The notes: generated by a model not told the origin, from the sequence alone. A DNA stretch of 45,406 bases from Clostridia bacterium (GCA_017436645.1 JAFSCR010000005.1:1-45406), one strand, 5' to 3'; counted from the first letter of the stretch, positions 1-6,311 are shown. Numbers and translations are program-made.

Positions 1-257
1 AAAAATACAATAGGACTTTCAATGCCTTTTCTCCGGATTTCTCTTGCAAGTTCTGTCCCCATTTCATCACCGATATATACATCAAGCATAAATATATCAA
101 ACAAGGCACCGTTATCAATGCTATTCAAAAGCGAACTTGCAGAGTTAAACGGAAAAACTTCAAGCTCCGACTTTCCGCATAGCTTAGAATATTTTTTTAT
201 ATAGGATGAAACCTCGTCCAAGATTATTGTTTCATCATCGCATATCGCTATTCTCAT
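1..257 (-). CDS. LytTR/AgrA-type response regulator, N-terminal part (cut by window edge)
   Basis: The translation begins MRIAICDDE and about 85 residues are visible. It is the start of a CheY-like receiver domain: the acidic pair D8-D9 near the N-terminus and the phosphoacceptor aspartate in the strand IFMLDVYIG are present. The wording (ICDDE, LDVYIGDEMGTELAREIR) is typical of the receiver of LytTR response regulators, which act with a membrane histidine kinase, but the output domain lies outside the window, so that subtype is inferred. The ATG at 257 is preceded by AGGGTGG. A truncated TetR gene ends 9 bases upstream in the same direction. The AT-rich composition resembles the rest of the accessory segment to 6450. 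Confidence 0.7.
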   Translation of the reverse strand, partial: MRIAICDDETIILDEVSSYIKKYSKLCGKSELEVFPFNSASSLLNSIDNGALFDIFMLDVYIGDEMGTELAREIRRKGIESPIVF

Positions 258-266
258 GTTTCCACC

Positions 267-692
267 CTACTTTCTTACCAAACTTAAAAACCATTCATCT
301 TCCGGCAGAGCAATATTGTTTTTATTACATGATACAATTATATTGCAGGCTGTACGGAAGAATAGCGCATAAAGAATACCGGGATGTCCGTCTTTAACCT
401 CACCATTTTTCTGTCCGATGCGAAGTGCATCTGCAACAGGTGTTTTTTCAAGTTCTTTCACCGATTCTTCCAAATAGCAAGGTGGAGTATCCTTACTGTT
501 TGCAATAGTGGAGGTAAAAGCTATTCGTTTTTTTCTTCCCTCATCATTCATAGATGATTTGAAATGTTGAATCAATCCGATTAAGTATTCTTCCCACGAT
601 TTATTTTCGCCTATGTCATTAAAAATCTTATGCAGGTTATCATACCCATCACGAACAACAGACAGAAAAAGTTCCTGCTTGCTGCCGAAATT
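267..692 (-). pseudogene. TetR-family regulator, 5'-truncated (DNA-binding domain lost)
   Basis: The open frame runs from an in-frame TAG at 693-695 to the stop at 267. It begins NFGSKQELFLSVVRDGYDN, the classic junction between the TetR helix-turn-helix (usually YxYFGSKxELF) and the ligand-binding domain, and continues through about 140 residues typical of a TetR C-terminal domain. The roughly 45 N-terminal residues with the helix-turn-helix are missing: upstream of the TAG there is only about 45 bases before a promoter. The first usable Met is at 575, inside the ligand domain. I infer an internal deletion that joined the old promoter region to the second half of the gene, so the product, if made, should not bind DNA. 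Confidence 0.7.
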
Positions 693-741
693 CTAACCAA
701 TAAGTCCAATGGATATAATGAGGTTTACCAAACTGTGTTTT

Positions 742-770
742 AGTATATTACATAATTTGCCTTTTGTCAA
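742..770 (-). promoter_or_regulatory. Sigma-A-type promoter ahead of the truncated TetR gene
   Basis: On the minus strand TTGACA (770-765) is separated by 17 bases from TATACT (747-742), near-consensus for the main sigma factor. It reads towards the truncated TetR gene and the response regulator and has probably survived the deletion that removed the TetR N-terminus. Confidence 0.65.
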
Positions 771-796
771 TGGAATATGAGCTTATTTGAAACAAC

Positions 797-828
797 AGAA
801 AGGTGTAACCTTAAGGCTACACCTTTCT
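797..828. terminator. Stem-loop between mobilisation fragment and TetR remnant
   Basis: A perfect 11-base inverted repeat, AGAAAGGTGTA (797-807) and TACACCTTTCT (818-828), encloses a loop containing the palindrome CCTTAAGG. Both sides are followed by only moderately T-rich sequence, so it could be a terminator for either strand or simply a stable hairpin. It lies 20 bases past the 3' end of the relaxase fragment. Confidence 0.45.
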
Positions 829-848
829 GCGCTATTTACTTTCCAATA

Positions 849-1126
849 TCAGTTTTCTCGCAAGAATAAACAAGCTATTGTCAACTGACGGAATATCTCT
901 TGAATTACTACCTCAAAGCTATCGCCCCACATTTCTTTTGCAAGTCTTTTCCCGATTTCATGAGCCATTTCAGGTGTAACCTCTCCCGGTTTGAAACTCT
1001 GTATGGCGTGAAATGCCACAATTCCATCCGTCTTACCATAACGGAGCTTTGTTTGGTTGTGATATGATATAAATTCCTCTTCTCTTGTCGTAAGACACAT
1101 ATCGTATCCGTAGGATATTGCATTTT
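849..1126 (-). pseudogene. Relaxase (MobA/VirD2-type) fragment
   Basis: The frame reads NAISYGYDMCLTTREEEF, then about 60 more residues including IQSFKPGEVTPEMAHEIG and LAKEMWGDSFEVVI. This is a well-conserved stretch of relaxases of Firmicute conjugative and mobilisable elements, where it is normally preceded by the catalytic-tyrosine region and followed by a histidine-rich ATHxDxxHxHxH metal site. Both are missing: the frame opens directly at the stop codon of the GH30 gene (1127), and after FEVV it runs into unrelated sequence. It is therefore a fragment cut at both ends. Its orientation away from the MobC-like fragment at 6012-6311 means the two are not simply one operon interrupted by an insertion. 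Confidence 0.75.
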
Positions 1127-2446
1127 TTAATTTTCAAAAATATACGTTGCTATTGAATGAGGCTCAATTTTCGTTTCAACCATGTTGTTTTCAATATAAA
1201 GTACAAAAGAGATTTCTTCCTCTGTTGTATTGAGTACAACGGTAACAACTGAACCATCAGGGTTTTTAAATGAAACTGTATCAAGCTTTGATGACCACTT
1301 ACTGCTTCCTATTCTCTTTGCTCCTTTTTGAACATATTTACTGAAATGACCTATGTAGTAATAGGAATTATGAATACAAAACTTATCGTTTTGGATATCT
1401 GCCATAATAGGTGCGTCACAGAAGTTGCAAACATGGTTAGGACCTCCTTCATCATTCAAAACAAGGTTCCAATCGCAGAATATATTACATCCGTTATTGA
1501 AGTTGCCTATTATATCATGGGCATATCTTTCTGCTGTTTTAACGGCATCGGCAGCACCCAGGCTGTATTCCTGGCATCCTTCTGAAAATACTATATCCTT
1601 ATCGGGATAGAGCTTTTTGAACATATCAAGCTGTTCAAAGTGATCTCCGCTGTACCAGTGAATTGCAATACCGCTGATGTATTTATCGGTTTCTTTATCA
1701 ATAGTTACTTTGGCTCTTTCAATTATGCGCTCTTTATTGTGATCCCAGAAAAGAATTTTCACGCCAATATCTGCCATTTTCTTGCCAAGATAGTTTTTTA
1801 TAAAATCTCTTTCTTCTTCGGCTGTATATATGCATGAATCCCATCTTTGAACAGCTTTTGGCTCATTTTGAACAGAGATTACGCTGATATCAAGCCCTCT
1901 TTTTTTGTATTCTTCTATAAATTTTACATAGTAGTCTGACCAAAGTTCAAAATATTCTTCCTTAAGTTTTCCTCCTTTGTTCATCTGAGCGTTTGTCTTC
2001 ATATATGCAGGAGGACTCCATGGAGATGCGAACAAGGTTATATCTCCGTATTTTTTTGCATCCTGTATCATCGGTATAATGGAAGCTTCATCTCTAGTTA
2101 CATCAAATGTTTCCAATGTATTGTCATTTTCTTCCACATAAGTATAATTCCCCATTGAAAAATCACAACTGTTTATATGAACTCTACCGAAATTATACCC
2201 AATTCCTTCGTTTTTATCGAAATATAGCTTTATGATTTTGTCTCTGTTTTCTTTGCTTAATTTATCAATTGTTGTAGATGCAGCCTCTGTAAATGCACCA
2301 CCAAAGCCTTTTATTTCCTGATATTCAATATCAGGAAATATACATATCAGCTCTCTTTCCCTTTCAGTATCTATTGAAAAGGAAAAATCAAAAGCCTCCT
2401 GCATTGGATTGCTGCCCTTCACTGTTTTAATCGCTTTTATATTCAT
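1127..2446 (-). CDS. Glycoside hydrolase family 30, probably intracellular
   Basis: This 439-residue protein belongs to GH30 (glucosylceramidase / beta-1,6-glucanase / beta-xylosidase type retaining glycosidases). The N-terminal signature EIKGFGGAFTEAA (44-56) is present. The catalytic acid/base is E195 in SVQNEP, the nucleophile is E289 in IVFSEGCQEY, and a small beta domain closes the C-terminus. There is no signal peptide, so it probably works in the cytoplasm on an imported glycoside. The start is preceded by AAAGGAG. It is the last gene of the SDR / dehydroquinase-like / reductase / GH30 group and lies 122 bases after the reductase gene, so it may also have its own promoter. The aglycone or sugar cannot be read from the sequence. 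The family assignment is firm. Confidence 0.9.
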   Translation of the reverse strand: MNIKAIKTVKGSNPMQEAFDFSFSIDTERERELICIFPDIEYQEIKGFGGAFTEAASTTIDKLSKENRDKIIKLYFDKNEGIGYNFGRVHINSCDFSMGNYTYVEENDNTLETFDVTRDEASIIPMIQDAKKYGDITLFASPWSPPAYMKTNAQMNKGGKLKEEYFELWSDYYVKFIEEYKKRGLDISVISVQNEPKAVQRWDSCIYTAEEERDFIKNYLGKKMADIGVKILFWDHNKERIIERAKVTIDKETDKYISGIAIHWYSGDHFEQLDMFKKLYPDKDIVFSEGCQEYSLGAADAVKTAERYAHDIIGNFNNGCNIFCDWNLVLNDEGGPNHVCNFCDAPIMADIQNDKFCIHNSYYYIGHFSKYVQKGAKRIGSSKWSSKLDTVSFKNPDGSVVTVVLNTTEEEISFVLYIENNMVETKIEPHSIATYIFEN

Positions 2447-2513
2447 ATCTTTTAATCTCCTTTAAAAACACCCAAAACTTTGTTACCATTTCCAAAGACA
2501 TAACCATATTTTT

Positions 2514-2545
2514 GTCAAGCAAAAAAACATAAAATTTTCCTTGAC
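2514..2545. promoter_or_regulatory. Weak inverted repeat upstream of GH30 gene
   Basis: GTCAAG (2514-2519) and CTTGAC (2540-2545) form an inverted repeat in the 122-base gap between the reductase and GH30 genes. The CCTTGA half-site is shared with the palindrome at 5188-5225 in front of the AraC gene, so it might bind the same regulator. On the minus strand a TTGACA (2518-2513) is present but without a good -10 at 17 bases. Speculative. Confidence 0.25.
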
Positions 2546-2568
2546 TTAATTTGTCGTGTGCTTACATT

Positions 2569-3552
2569 TTATTTTACTTTCAAAACTACCTTACCAACAT
2601 TTTGACCTTTATAAAGAATATCATGTGCCTTTTCGGCCTCTGTTATAGGAAGCACAGCGTGAATAGTAGGTTTTATTTCTCCCGTTTCTATTTTGGGAAA
2701 CACATTTTCCACAAGCTTTGAAAGAATTTGAGCTTTTGTTTGAGGAGTTCTTGAACGAAGGGTACTGCCTATTATTCTTACGTTTCTAACATAAATATTT
2801 TTAAGGTCAATTTCTGTTTTCTGACCTGCCAATGCGGCAATCATAATCCATCTTGCACCATGGGTTAAATAATGAATACACTTGCCCATTATTTCTCCGC
2901 CCAGACAGTCTATTGCTACATCAACACTATGACCGTTCTCAAGTTCTTGTTTTAAGACTTCTGCTATATCTTCTTTTGTTGTTACCACAACTCTGTCTGC
3001 ATTTAAATGTTTTATGGAATCTGCTTTTTCATCATCCAAAACTGTAGTTATAACCCTTATACCAAATGCTTTTGCCATAGGTATTATAACACTTGCAAGA
3101 CCAGATGCTCCGGCGTTCATTAAAAGAGTATTGCCTGCCTTTATATTTCCCTCCACAAATAAATTAAGGTAAGCGGTTGCAAAGGCTTCGGGGATTGCAG
3201 CAGCTTCTATCATAGAACAATTTTCAGGTACCGGCATTAGCATATCGTATTTAACTGCCACATACTCAGCATATCCTCCGCCGCCAAGAAGTGCACATAC
3301 TTTATCACCGATTTTGTAATTTGATTTTTCTTTTACCCCCTCTGTCATTTCAACAATTTCGCCTGAAACTTCAAGTCCCATCCATTCAGGACAGCCTTCG
3401 GGCGGAGGATAGTCACCCTCTCTTTGCATAAGGTCTGCACGATTCAGAGCTGCATATTCAACCTTTATCAAAACTTCATCTTCTTTAAGAACAGGATTCA
3501 GAACCTCATCCCACCTTAAGCTCTTATCGTTATTTACAAGTATAGCTTTCAT
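2569..3552 (-). CDS. Zinc-independent MDR oxidoreductase, PIG3-like quinone reductase
   Basis: This 327-residue medium-chain dehydrogenase/reductase lacks zinc ligands. The stretch LNRADLMQREGDYPPP (36-51), followed by GLEVSGEI, is diagnostic of the PIG3 (TP53I3-like) NAD(P)H:quinone oxidoreductase branch. The nucleotide-binding loop AGASGLAS (147-154) replaces the usual GGxSGVG. Members reduce quinones or activated C=C bonds. The gene follows the dehydroquinase-like gene by 17 bases and starts after AAAGGA. In this operon it could reduce an enone made by dehydration; that role is inferred from context only. Confidence 0.87.
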   Translation of the reverse strand: MKAILVNNDKSLRWDEVLNPVLKEDEVLIKVEYAALNRADLMQREGDYPPPEGCPEWMGLEVSGEIVEMTEGVKEKSNYKIGDKVCALLGGGGYAEYVAVKYDMLMPVPENCSMIEAAAIPEAFATAYLNLFVEGNIKAGNTLLMNAGASGLASVIIPMAKAFGIRVITTVLDDEKADSIKHLNADRVVVTTKEDIAEVLKQELENGHSVDVAIDCLGGEIMGKCIHYLTHGARWIMIAALAGQKTEIDLKNIYVRNVRIIGSTLRSRTPQTKAQILSKLVENVFPKIETGEIKPTIHAVLPITEAEKAHDILYKGQNVGKVVLKVK

Positions 3553-3569
3553 TTTATTTCCTTTCCTAA

Positions 3570-4322
3570 TTACATATTATTCCTTATTTCTCTTACGTTC
3601 TTCAAAAGCGGTTGCGAAGCTGTGGATAGCTCATCATATTCATAAACACACAGATACATACAGCACCCCAGTTCCCCACCTATTTTTCTTAATATTGTGC
3701 TCTCACCACTTGATGAAAACAAAAACGGAATCTTTAAATTTTCTTTGAGCATATTAATTATTTTAAGATTTTCCAACTGTTCTTCCATCGTATCTGCCCC
3801 AGTAACGATTTTGCATATATCTGCTCCGCGCCTTTGATGTTCCAACGCTATTTCCAGAACTCTTTTTGCAGGAGTATATTTAAAAATATGGGAAGACATA
3901 AGAACCTGAGTACCTTTTTTATGGAGTTTATCTATAATTTCTTCTTGTTTTCTGATTGCATTTTTATCGATTGACACTTCATCATCTTGTTTATCAAACA
4001 AATCTCCCATTACATCACATAGGGTTGCGCCGCAATCTGCAATTTCAAGTATTTCTGCCGCTATTTCTTCATCTGTTTTCCCTTCATTATTTCCGTAGCG
4101 GTAATTGGTTACATAAACAGGTTTACCGCCTGTATAAGAAAACAAATCCTTATATGTTTGTTTATTTCTGTATTCATCCTTCATTCTGCAAAACTGCATT
4201 CCAAAAGCTTCGGCTCCCTCAGGCAGTGACTTATCTATAAGTTCTTTTATTCTGTCAGGGTTATCCGCCTGCACCATAACTGTGAGAAGAGATTTGTCAT
4301 ATTTTAAAAATGTTGGGTTCAT
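3570..4322 (-). CDS. Divergent type I 3-dehydroquinate dehydratase-family protein
   Basis: This 250-residue protein has the full length of an AroD (class I DHQase) barrel. Family landmarks are visible: R75 and E80 in VTNYRYGNNEG, H145 in SSHIFKYTP, the Schiff-base lysine K171 in DICKIVTGAD, R212 in STILRK, and S233/Q237 in ELSTASQP. They fall close to the catalytic positions of the Salmonella enzyme (R82, E86, H143, K170, R213, S232, Q236). Two conserved acidic positions differ: the usual EWR near residue 43 is MQFCR and the usual DVE near 103 is DVM. It lies in a putative catabolic operon under an AraC regulator, not among shikimate genes, and its ATG directly follows the SDR stop codon. A dehydratase on a related keto-polyol is likely; a biosynthetic AroD role is less likely. 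Confidence 0.75.
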   Translation of the reverse strand: MNPTFLKYDKSLLTVMVQADNPDRIKELIDKSLPEGAEAFGMQFCRMKDEYRNKQTYKDLFSYTGGKPVYVTNYRYGNNEGKTDEEIAAEILEIADCGATLCDVMGDLFDKQDDEVSIDKNAIRKQEEIIDKLHKKGTQVLMSSHIFKYTPAKRVLEIALEHQRRGADICKIVTGADTMEEQLENLKIINMLKENLKIPFLFSSSGESTILRKIGGELGCCMYLCVYEYDELSTASQPLLKNVREIRNNM

Positions 4323-5087
4323 TTACTTCCACCTTCCCATAGCATTTCTGCCACCATCTATCATTATGTTTTCACCATTTATAAACTGTCCTTTATCTGA
4401 CGCAACAAAAAGACACAAATCAATAATTTCCTGAGGATCTGCAGCTCTTCCAACAAGAGTTTTCATATTTGCCATATTAGTTCTTGTGAGAACAGGTCCG
4501 GGGGATATGCAAACACATCTTATGTTATAAGGCGAGCCAAACTGTGCAATGGATTTGGTGAGGCCAAACATGAGACCTGCTTTTGATGTGGGATAGTCAA
4601 TACCATAGCCGTCTCCTTCTTGTCCTGTTATAGAGCCTATATTAATAATAAGACCGCTTTTTTGTTTTCGCATTTGTTTTAAAACAGCATGAGCAAAGTA
4701 AAAGGGGCCTTTAAGATTAACATCTATTCCCCAGTCATACACATCAATCGGAACATCCGGAAACTCCGGATACTCACTTCTATCAACCTTTCTCATTCTT
4801 ACAGCTGTTCCGCCCGCAAAATTTGCTACAATGTCAATTCTGCCGAAAACTTCAACAGCCTTATCTCTGGCTGCGCAAACCTGTGCATACTCACGTACAT
4901 CACATACAACGCCTATTGCTCTGCCTTTATTAAGAATGTTTATCTCTGCAACTTTCTCATTTAAAACTTCTTCATTAACATCACACATAACAACATTTCC
5001 GCCAAGGGAAGCAAAGCTTTGTGCAAACAAAAGCCCCATTCCGGAAGCAGCTCCTGTTGATATTGCGGTTTTTCCTGTGAAATTCAT
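4323..5087 (-). CDS. Short-chain dehydrogenase/reductase (classical SDR)
   Basis: This 254-residue protein has the classical SDR layout: cofactor motif TGAASGMG (11-18), the NxAGG-like NFAGG (89-93), catalytic S152 in NIGSITG, and Y165/K169 in YPTSK. The C-terminus FINGENIMIDGGR is typical of the FabG/sugar-alcohol dehydrogenase type. An insertion around residues 95-120 separates it from plain FabG. Aspartate at the end of beta-2 (MCDVN) suggests NAD rather than NADP. It is the first gene of the minus-strand group, with GAGGAG before the ATG and a leader of about 100 bases from the divergent promoter. It probably oxidises a hydroxyl of the ring that the next gene product dehydrates; that order is inferred. 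Confidence 0.85.
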   Translation of the reverse strand: MNFTGKTAISTGAASGMGLLFAQSFASLGGNVVMCDVNEEVLNEKVAEINILNKGRAIGVVCDVREYAQVCAARDKAVEVFGRIDIVANFAGGTAVRMRKVDRSEYPEFPDVPIDVYDWGIDVNLKGPFYFAHAVLKQMRKQKSGLIINIGSITGQEGDGYGIDYPTSKAGLMFGLTKSIAQFGSPYNIRCVCISPGPVLTRTNMANMKTLVGRAADPQEIIDLCLFVASDKGQFINGENIMIDGGRNAMGRWK

Positions 5088-5187
5088 AATTACACTCCTC
5101 TCTTGTATTATTATATTAAAAAATCAACTTGCATTCAATGAAAAAAACGATACAATATTAACATTTCCGATATAAAATAAATTAAAA

Positions 5188-5225
5188 ACCTTGATTTATA
5201 TTATCAAAAACAATATAATCAAGGT
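5188..5225. promoter_or_regulatory. Palindrome carrying two overlapping divergent promoters
   Basis: ACCTTGATTTATATT (5188-5202) and AATATAATCAAGGT (5212-5225) form an inverted repeat with one unpaired base. On the plus strand it contains TTGATT (5191-5196), 17 bases, TATAAT (5214-5219), reading to the AraC gene. On the minus strand TTGATT (5222-5217), 16 bases, TATAAA (5200-5195) reads to the SDR gene. RNA polymerase could occupy only one direction at a time, and a dimeric regulator on the palindrome would cover both. Confidence 0.6.
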
Positions 5226-5244
5226 ATATGGAGTGTGATTTGAA

Positions 5245-6006
5245 ATGGAAATAGCAAATAAAATTATTATTACAGACATTGAGGATATAGCTACTATCTC
5301 ATATCCCAAAAGAAAACGCGTAAAAATAAATAACAGAAAATGCTATGGTCTATCGTTTTGCATAGAGGGACAAATAACTTATACATGCCTTGGCAAAAAA
5401 TACATATCCGACCCACATCACGCAATTATTCTGCCCCAGGGACAAAGCTATAGCATATATGGTGACAAACAAGGTACTTTCCCGCTTATCAACTTTAAAT
5501 GTATGAGCCAATTGTGTGACACAATGATAGTATTGCCTATTGAAAACCCAAGCACATATATAAAAGAATTTGAGTATATGAAGGCACTATCTATTTTTGA
5601 AAGAAATAACCCAAAGGTTATGAGTATCTTTTATGATATTATTTACAGGTTATTATCAAAGGATGGCAAAAATTCCAACATTTTGCTTAATGCAGAAAAA
5701 TTTTTGGAAAATAATTTTGACAATCCAAAAATCACAAATGAAATGCTTGCAAAACAATGCGGAATAAGTGAAATATATTTTCGCAAACTTTTTTCAAAAC
5801 AATATGGCATAACTCCACATCAATATATTATAAACATACGCGTAAATAAAGCCAAGCAGCTATTAACAGATGGAGTATTAAAAGTTAATGCAATTTCTGA
5901 AAAATGTGGATTTTCAAATTCAAACCATTTTTGCCGCATTTTCAAAGAGAAAACAGGTCTAACACCAATGGAATATATGAACAGAAATTATATATCTAAA
6001 ATTTAA
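5245..6006 (+). CDS. AraC-family transcriptional regulator
   Basis: This 253-residue protein has an N-terminal cupin-like sensor (about 1-110, including ISDPHHAIILPQGQSYSIYG) and a C-terminal double helix-turn-helix (about 150-250). The latter contains MLAKQCGISEIYFRKLFSKQ and the AraC signature CGFSNSNHFCRIFKEKTGLTP, the latter near residues 218-238. The cupin-type sensor is usual for regulators of sugar and glycoside catabolism. The gene is divergent from the SDR/dehydroquinase-like/reductase/GH30 genes and shares their promoter palindrome, so it most likely controls them and itself. Its stop codon sits at the right border of the cassette, immediately before the MobC-like fragment. Confidence 0.9.
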   Translation: MEIANKIIITDIEDIATISYPKRKRVKINNRKCYGLSFCIEGQITYTCLGKKYISDPHHAIILPQGQSYSIYGDKQGTFPLINFKCMSQLCDTMIVLPIENPSTYIKEFEYMKALSIFERNNPKVMSIFYDIIYRLLSKDGKNSNILLNAEKFLENNFDNPKITNEMLAKQCGISEIYFRKLFSKQYGITPHQYIINIRVNKAKQLLTDGVLKVNAISEKCGFSNSNHFCRIFKEKTGLTPMEYMNRNYISKI

Positions 6007-6011
6007 TTTAC

Positions 6012-6311
6012 CTTATTAAGGGCAGGTTTAGAAGTGTTACAATAGGTTTTCGTGTATCACCTGAAGAAGCTTATGCACTTGATTTGAAGGTAAATACTTC
6101 GGGAATGACCAAGCAGGACTATTGTACCAAAAAGGTCTTGGACGAAGAAATCACTGTGCATCCTAATATCAGGGTGCAAACTTATATATGCCGATACCTG
6201 ACTGAACTAACAGAGCAGTTAAAAAGACTTGGAAGCATTGAGAAGAATAATGATGTGCTTGAGAATATAAAATATCTGCTGGAACTTATTGATAAAATGG
6301 GCGAAAACTAA
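6012..6311 (+). pseudogene. MobC-like mobilisation accessory protein, 5'-truncated
   Basis: The frame reads GRFRSVTIGFRVSPEEAYAL, then DLKVNTSGMTKQDYCTKKVL, which is the ribbon-helix-helix-like N-terminal region of small plasmid mobilisation (MobC-type) proteins. It continues in a helical C-terminus to the stop at 6311. No start codon with a ribosome site exists before the motif; the first Met is at 6084, after it, so translation from there would miss the conserved region. The frame runs back into the AraC 3' end, where the cassette border lies. In intact elements MobC helps the relaxase at oriT. Here it is a remnant lying about 140 bases from the guaA attachment site. Confidence 0.7.

Follow-up and report, generated by a model that had tools for sequence, protein, structure and literature searches.

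The four genes encoding an AraC-type regulator, an SDR oxidoreductase, a protein resembling type I 3-dehydroquinate dehydratase (AroD/DHQ1) and a PIG3-type reductase form a real, conserved and uncharacterised catabolic gene set. They were analysed in a stretch of 45,406 nucleotides from a Clostridia bacterium (GCA_017436645.1 JAFSCR010000005.1:1-45406), referred to here as the window. On balance we favour the reading that these genes entered by horizontal transfer and work under AraC control as a catabolic (or electron-sink) module, in which oxidation by the SDR would be followed by elimination by the DHQ1-like protein and reduction by the PIG3 enzyme. No description of a gene set combining SDR, DHQ1-like, PIG3 and AraC members was found in the open-access literature.

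Gene order and recurrence of the module

The first gene of the operon on the (-) strand encodes the SDR (SDR1, 4323-5087; Pfam adh_short/adh_short_C2), which is predicted to turn a hydroxyl group into a keto group. It is followed on the same strand by the genes for the DHQ1-like protein (3570-4322; Pfam DHquinase_I), a predicted Schiff-base beta-eliminase or dehydratase, the MDR/PIG3 reductase (2569-3552; Pfam ADH/MDR and TIGR02824), a predicted enone reductase, and a GH30 glycosidase ORF (1127-2446; Pfam GH30, E 1e-74), the successive intergenic distances being 0, 17 and 122 bases. The AraC gene (5245-6006, (+) strand; Pfam HTH_18) is divergent from the SDR operon across a gap of 157 bases. 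These five genes and their spacing had been called in an earlier note on this DNA; the ORFs lie where it had placed them, and their families were matched by Pfam and NCBIfam.

Counting the window's own genome, relatives of the DHQ1-like protein occurred in 20 of 291 genomes and 18 of 180 genera of a class-level sample, in 3 of 28 genomes of an order-level sample and in 3 of 398 genomes of a phylum-level sample, and a species-genome sample gave 19 loci with relatives at 53-74% identity. Judging from their titles, many of the source records come from MAGs of the ruminant gut. A blastp comparison of the neighbouring ORFs covered a set of 42 loci, which includes the window, counts one contig twice (L020 and L078) and leaves out L019, where an overlapping ORF was retained by the ORF caller at the DHQ1-like relative. 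The module recurs in about 40 loci besides the window, often in identical order. AraC was found at 33 of the 42 loci, the SDR at 30 and PIG3 at 26; further partners were a second SDR (SDR2, 19 loci), an extended SDR (14 loci), and MocA and MDR2 (12 loci each). About one-third of the loci, several of them truncated by contig ends, showed no PIG3 gene within 7.5 kb. The recurring order is AraC< SDR> DHQ> [SDR2] [MBL] [AraC2< MDR2> MocA> extended SDR>] PIG3>, an MBL-fold lactonase-like hydrolase being present in some loci. The window order, AraC< SDR> DHQ> PIG3>, is the same in L018 and L076 and also in L075, whose left end is cut off; in L086, L088 and L089 SDR1 is replaced by an extended SDR.

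The SDR, with its YxxxK motif visible as YPTSK, is 78-87% identical to its counterparts in most relative loci, and the PIG3 reductase is 63-86% identical; AraC relatives, at 41-57% identity, lie upstream of the SDR in many loci. Conservation is lower among the DHQ1-like proteins than in the SDR and PIG3, so they may not share a single substrate. Codon differences between the AraC, SDR, DHQ1-like and PIG3 genes and their relatives fall mostly at third positions, a purifying-selection pattern that shows the module genes to be maintained. Judged by this codon pattern and by an order that recurs in many genera, the grouping is more than chance.

Two loci carry variants of their own. At L080 (241-7279) the SDR/DHQ1-like pair is present in two copies, with one AraC for each, and L002 (17072-20748) contains a second, separate cluster of a DHQ1-like paralogue (33% like that of the window), MDR2, MocA and an amidohydrolase. 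Glycyl radical enzymes, considered as partners, were set aside: they lie near only 2 of the 42 loci, are 29% alike and were taken as chance neighbours.

The GH30 glycosidase

The GH30 protein contains two domains above cut-off, a PF02055 TIM barrel (252 bits) and a PF17189 beta-sandwich (64 bits), and no signal peptide was evident by eye. Its best PDB match was SrfJ (2wnw, E 8e-111), with human glucosylceramidase second. It thus most resembles the SrfJ/glucosylceramidase-type GH30 enzymes but lies outside the conserved module. SrfJ is reported to be a glucosylceramidase (PMC10179164), and its expression reportedly responds to myo-inositol (PMC5723671); for the GH30 here this inositol link is suggestive only.

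The earlier note had treated all five genes as one cassette, with GH30 as the committed first step that sets free the compound on which the other enzymes act. The position of the gene is compatible with this: it follows PIG3 on the same strand after 122 bases, no terminator-like site was found between the two on their strand, and it shares their low-GC island. However, a search for conserved neighbourhoods recovered AraC, SDR, DHQ1-like and PIG3 together in many genera and GH30 at the window only (1 of 42 loci), and its relatives in the order-level sample, at 70% and 65% identity, sit in other neighbourhoods. A route that starts with GH30 is therefore very unlikely, and GH30 was rejected as a core member. 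The window thus has a four-gene module with GH30 as its neighbour, for which 'five-gene cassette' is too wide a term; the glycosidase is a local addition that may provide substrate in this genome.

The DHQ1-like protein

The DHQ1-like protein scored 51.9 bits against Pfam DHquinase_I (cut-off 22.2). Its AlphaFold model (pLDDT 94.5) has the DHQ1 TIM-barrel fold, as all of the top 50 PDB matches were DHQ1, at 13-20% identity and TM scores of about 0.7-0.8 by query length. In DHQ1 enzymes a lysine forms the Schiff base, a histidine is catalytic, an arginine and a glutamine bind the carboxylate, and Glu46 and Arg48 are substrate residues. Alignment identified Lys171, His145, Arg212 and Gln237 as the equivalents of Lys170, His143, Arg213 and Gln236 of E. 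coli AroD. The first three, including the Schiff-base lysine and the catalytic histidine, were present in 40 of 40 aligned sequences (the window and its relatives), and Gln237 in 39. The two AroD substrate residues were altered, Glu46 to Gly41 in 37 of 40 sequences and Arg48 to Gln43 in 38 of 40, assignments that rest on sequence alignments other than that of hhalign, which placed the N-terminal half differently against E. coli AroD. The loop with the equivalent of Glu86, the partner of the histidine, aligned poorly in this family.

Against the NCBIfam aroD model the protein reached 42.4 bits, below the cut-off of 139.3. The genome encodes a type II dehydroquinase separately, and a second type I dehydroquinase match was not found in it. 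The DHQ1-like protein is probably not biosynthetic, because it lacks the Glu46/Arg48 pair, scores below the AroD cut-off and coexists with a separate type II enzyme; on the same grounds a role as AroD was rejected as unlikely. It also differs from AroD in its operon partners. Its chemistry is probably of the DHQ1 type, yet its membership as AroD fails. The glycine and glutamine in place of Glu46 and Arg48 argue against 3-dehydroquinate as the substrate, and the retained equivalents of Arg213 and Gln236 fit a ring carboxylate.

These residues bear on one specific form of the favoured reading, in which quinate- or shikimate-like acids would undergo oxidation, dehydration and hydrogenation in steps towards cyclohexane carboxylates. 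Rumen microbes have long been known to convert such acids towards cyclohexane carboxylates, and to our knowledge no genes have been assigned to this reduction. The DHQ1 fold with its carboxylate-binding pair is consistent with such a route, as are the many ruminant gut MAGs among the source records and the weak matches of the SDRs to hydroxycyclohexanecarboxylate dehydrogenase models. On the other hand, the Glu46 and Arg48 equivalents are changed, the SDR scores are far under the cut-offs and of a kind common to many families, and no paper tying such genes to the route was found in the open-access literature. We regard this hydroaromatic route as rather unlikely in its specific form.

Regulator and putative operator

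A predicted AraC operator, TATCGGAAATGTTAATATTGTATCGTTTT (5144-5172, (-) strand), has direct TATC half-sites 20 nucleotides apart. It ends 5 bases upstream of the -35-like box in the putative sigma-70 promoter from which the SDR operon would be transcribed (5110-5138, (-) strand; TTGAAT-17-TATAAT), located by a consensus scan. A search of the genome that allowed up to 3 mismatches gave no other operator site. Allowing up to 5 mismatches, the corresponding 29-base putative operator, TATCRNAAAYRTYAANNTANTATCRTTTT, was present 85-99 bases before the SDR start in each of the 14 loci with a divergent AraC, a count that is partly circular, as the consensus was drawn from these loci, and that includes L082, whose AraC would fall past the contig end. 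In loci without a divergent AraC, which are free of that circularity, it was present in 0 of 6 (10-12 mismatches). Shuffled sequences gave an average of 0.2 loci with a site at up to 6 mismatches. From these comparisons we infer that AraC binds the 29-base site. A near-palindrome, CCTTGATTTATATTATCAAAAACAATATAATCAAGG, at 5190-5226 overlaps the putative promoter of the AraC gene and is a possible autoregulation site.

The shared putative operator also bears on a reading as general detoxification, in which the SDR and PIG3 would act on quinones or reactive carbonyls, with the DHQ1-like protein only incidental. The PIG3-family enzymes do include quinone reductases. However, the adjacency of SDR and DHQ1-like genes and their common putative operator across genera argue against this reading, which we judge very unlikely.

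An acquired location

The GC content is 31-39% over positions 1-6000 and about 40-51% beyond, and the GC step is sharp at the 3' end of guaA (6451), beside which the island terminates. Remnants of mobilisation genes lie on both sides of the cassette: a relaxase (MobA/VirD2-like) fragment (849-1100, (-) strand; Pfam Relaxase E 1e-13, covering only profile positions 21-83 of 132) and a 5'-truncated NikA-like mobilisation protein (6000-6311, (+) strand; Pfam NikA-like E 9e-12, with no start codon before the match). The low GC, these remnants and the adjacent 3' end of guaA, a usual integration site, indicate that the cassette was acquired, and the island is probably the decayed remainder of a mobilisable element. 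The PIG3 tree places the window protein and that of its genus-mate G004 in different starred halves, which likewise argues for horizontal transfer; the placement of the window in the DHQ1-like tree was unresolved. A search for direct repeats bounding the island gave no convincing pair, and the contig begins inside the island. By eye, two further ORFs were seen at the start of the contig, a response-regulator-like ORF (3-266, (-) strand) that runs off its end and a TetR-like ORF (267-692, (-) strand) whose start seems lost.

Close relatives of the DHQ1-like protein were absent from the plasmid collection, in which identities were only 24-31%, and a search for phage carriage gave no match. The nearest relatives in the plasmid collection were on one Mesorhizobium plasmid and in three haloarchaea. 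The Mesorhizobium plasmid carries a looser version of the module, with 31% identity to the window for the DHQ1-like protein, 38% for the PIG3-family protein and 33% for the SDR. There (L093, 3580-18657) the DHQ1-like gene lies among genes for SDRs, a PIG3-like quinone oxidoreductase, a fumarylacetoacetate hydrolase family protein and an ABC importer, and its annotation as type I 3-dehydroquinate dehydratase is possibly wrong. On a Halobellus limi plasmid (L094, 7246-9876), two DHQ1-like genes flank an SDR gene in an apparent sugar-acid catabolic region.

Proposed route

Since the SDR, DHQ1-like protein, PIG3 and AraC belong together, a route of oxidation, dehydration and reduction is the natural reading of the set. 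This part of the earlier note stands, given that the four genes co-occur and that the Schiff-base lysine and the histidine are kept. In the presence of an inducer, AraC would activate the operon from the direct-repeat site abutting the -35 box. The substrate would be a polyhydroxylated ring or sugar acid, one hydroxyl of which the SDR would convert to a ketone. With this ketone Lys171 of the DHQ1-like protein would form a Schiff base; together with His145 it would then eliminate water or an O-linked group from the beta position, leaving an enone for the PIG3-type MDR to reduce. The net outcome would be that a hydroxyl group or a beta substituent is removed reductively. At other loci the oxidation step may be supplied or replaced by SDR2, the extended SDR or the MDR2 and MocA pair.

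The PIG3 reductase scored 351 bits against the TIGR02824 model of the NCBIfam PIG3 family (cut-off 296.8), as expected of a family member, and is the sole close copy in the genome (a single match at E<=1e-20). We infer the reactions, their order and the substrate, each reaction from the chemistry of its family; direction and order are guesses, because PIG3-family enzymes also reduce quinones and SDRs run both ways. The substrate may be a hydroaromatic acid, a cyclitol, a keto-sugar acid or a glycoside, classes that the evidence does not separate.

Bile-acid 7-dehydroxylation (bai) likewise combines oxidation, water elimination and enone reduction for net hydroxyl removal. The likeness is one of reaction logic alone; the module has no visible CoA ligase and its dehydratase has a different fold.

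The MocA and MDR2 partners at other loci point to keto-sugars as much as to ring acids. In this second specific form of the favoured reading, a sugar hydroxyl would be oxidised and the DHQ1-like protein would eliminate the aglycone or a ring substituent, in a Schiff-base version of what the levoglucosan and 3-keto-glycoside pathways do. MocA and MDR2 each occur in 12 of 42 loci, MDR2 is 24% identical to the E. coli guloside dehydrogenase YcjQ, and assorted glycosidases lie near some loci. Ketone formation followed by elimination or epimerisation is known from levoglucosan LgdA-B1-B2-C (PMC7676230) and E. coli ycjQRS. However, MocA and MDR2 are missing from the window, and MDR2 is without a match in its genome, although an empty search result says little. 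No recurrent glycosidase or dedicated transporter was found beside the module, where no family accounts for more than 2-4 of 90 flanking proteins, and the eliminated levoglucosan intermediate is hydrated (PMC7676230) rather than reduced by a PIG3 enzyme. We consider this route doubtful in its specific form, and its probability, like that of the hydroaromatic route, overlaps with that of the favoured reading.

Implications

The module is compact, recurring and apparently under regulation; it suggests a clear chemical hypothesis, and no pathway assigned to it was found. A bolder and rather unlikely reading is that the DHQ1-like family comprises a new class of Schiff-base beta-eliminases that act on keto-sugars or keto-cyclitols, not on dehydroquinate, and are coupled to PIG3. 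The set would then be a mobile, undescribed anaerobic route by which plant compounds lose hydroxyl groups or aglycones in the gut of herbivores, and a wider version of it would exist in Alphaproteobacteria and haloarchaea. The findings also suggest that, away from the shikimate pathway, a whole subfamily of proteins may be misannotated as 'type I 3-dehydroquinate dehydratase'. If the favoured reading holds, the dehydroquinase fold would have a new use, and the module may explain how clostridia of the herbivore gut reduce polyhydroxylated plant compounds.
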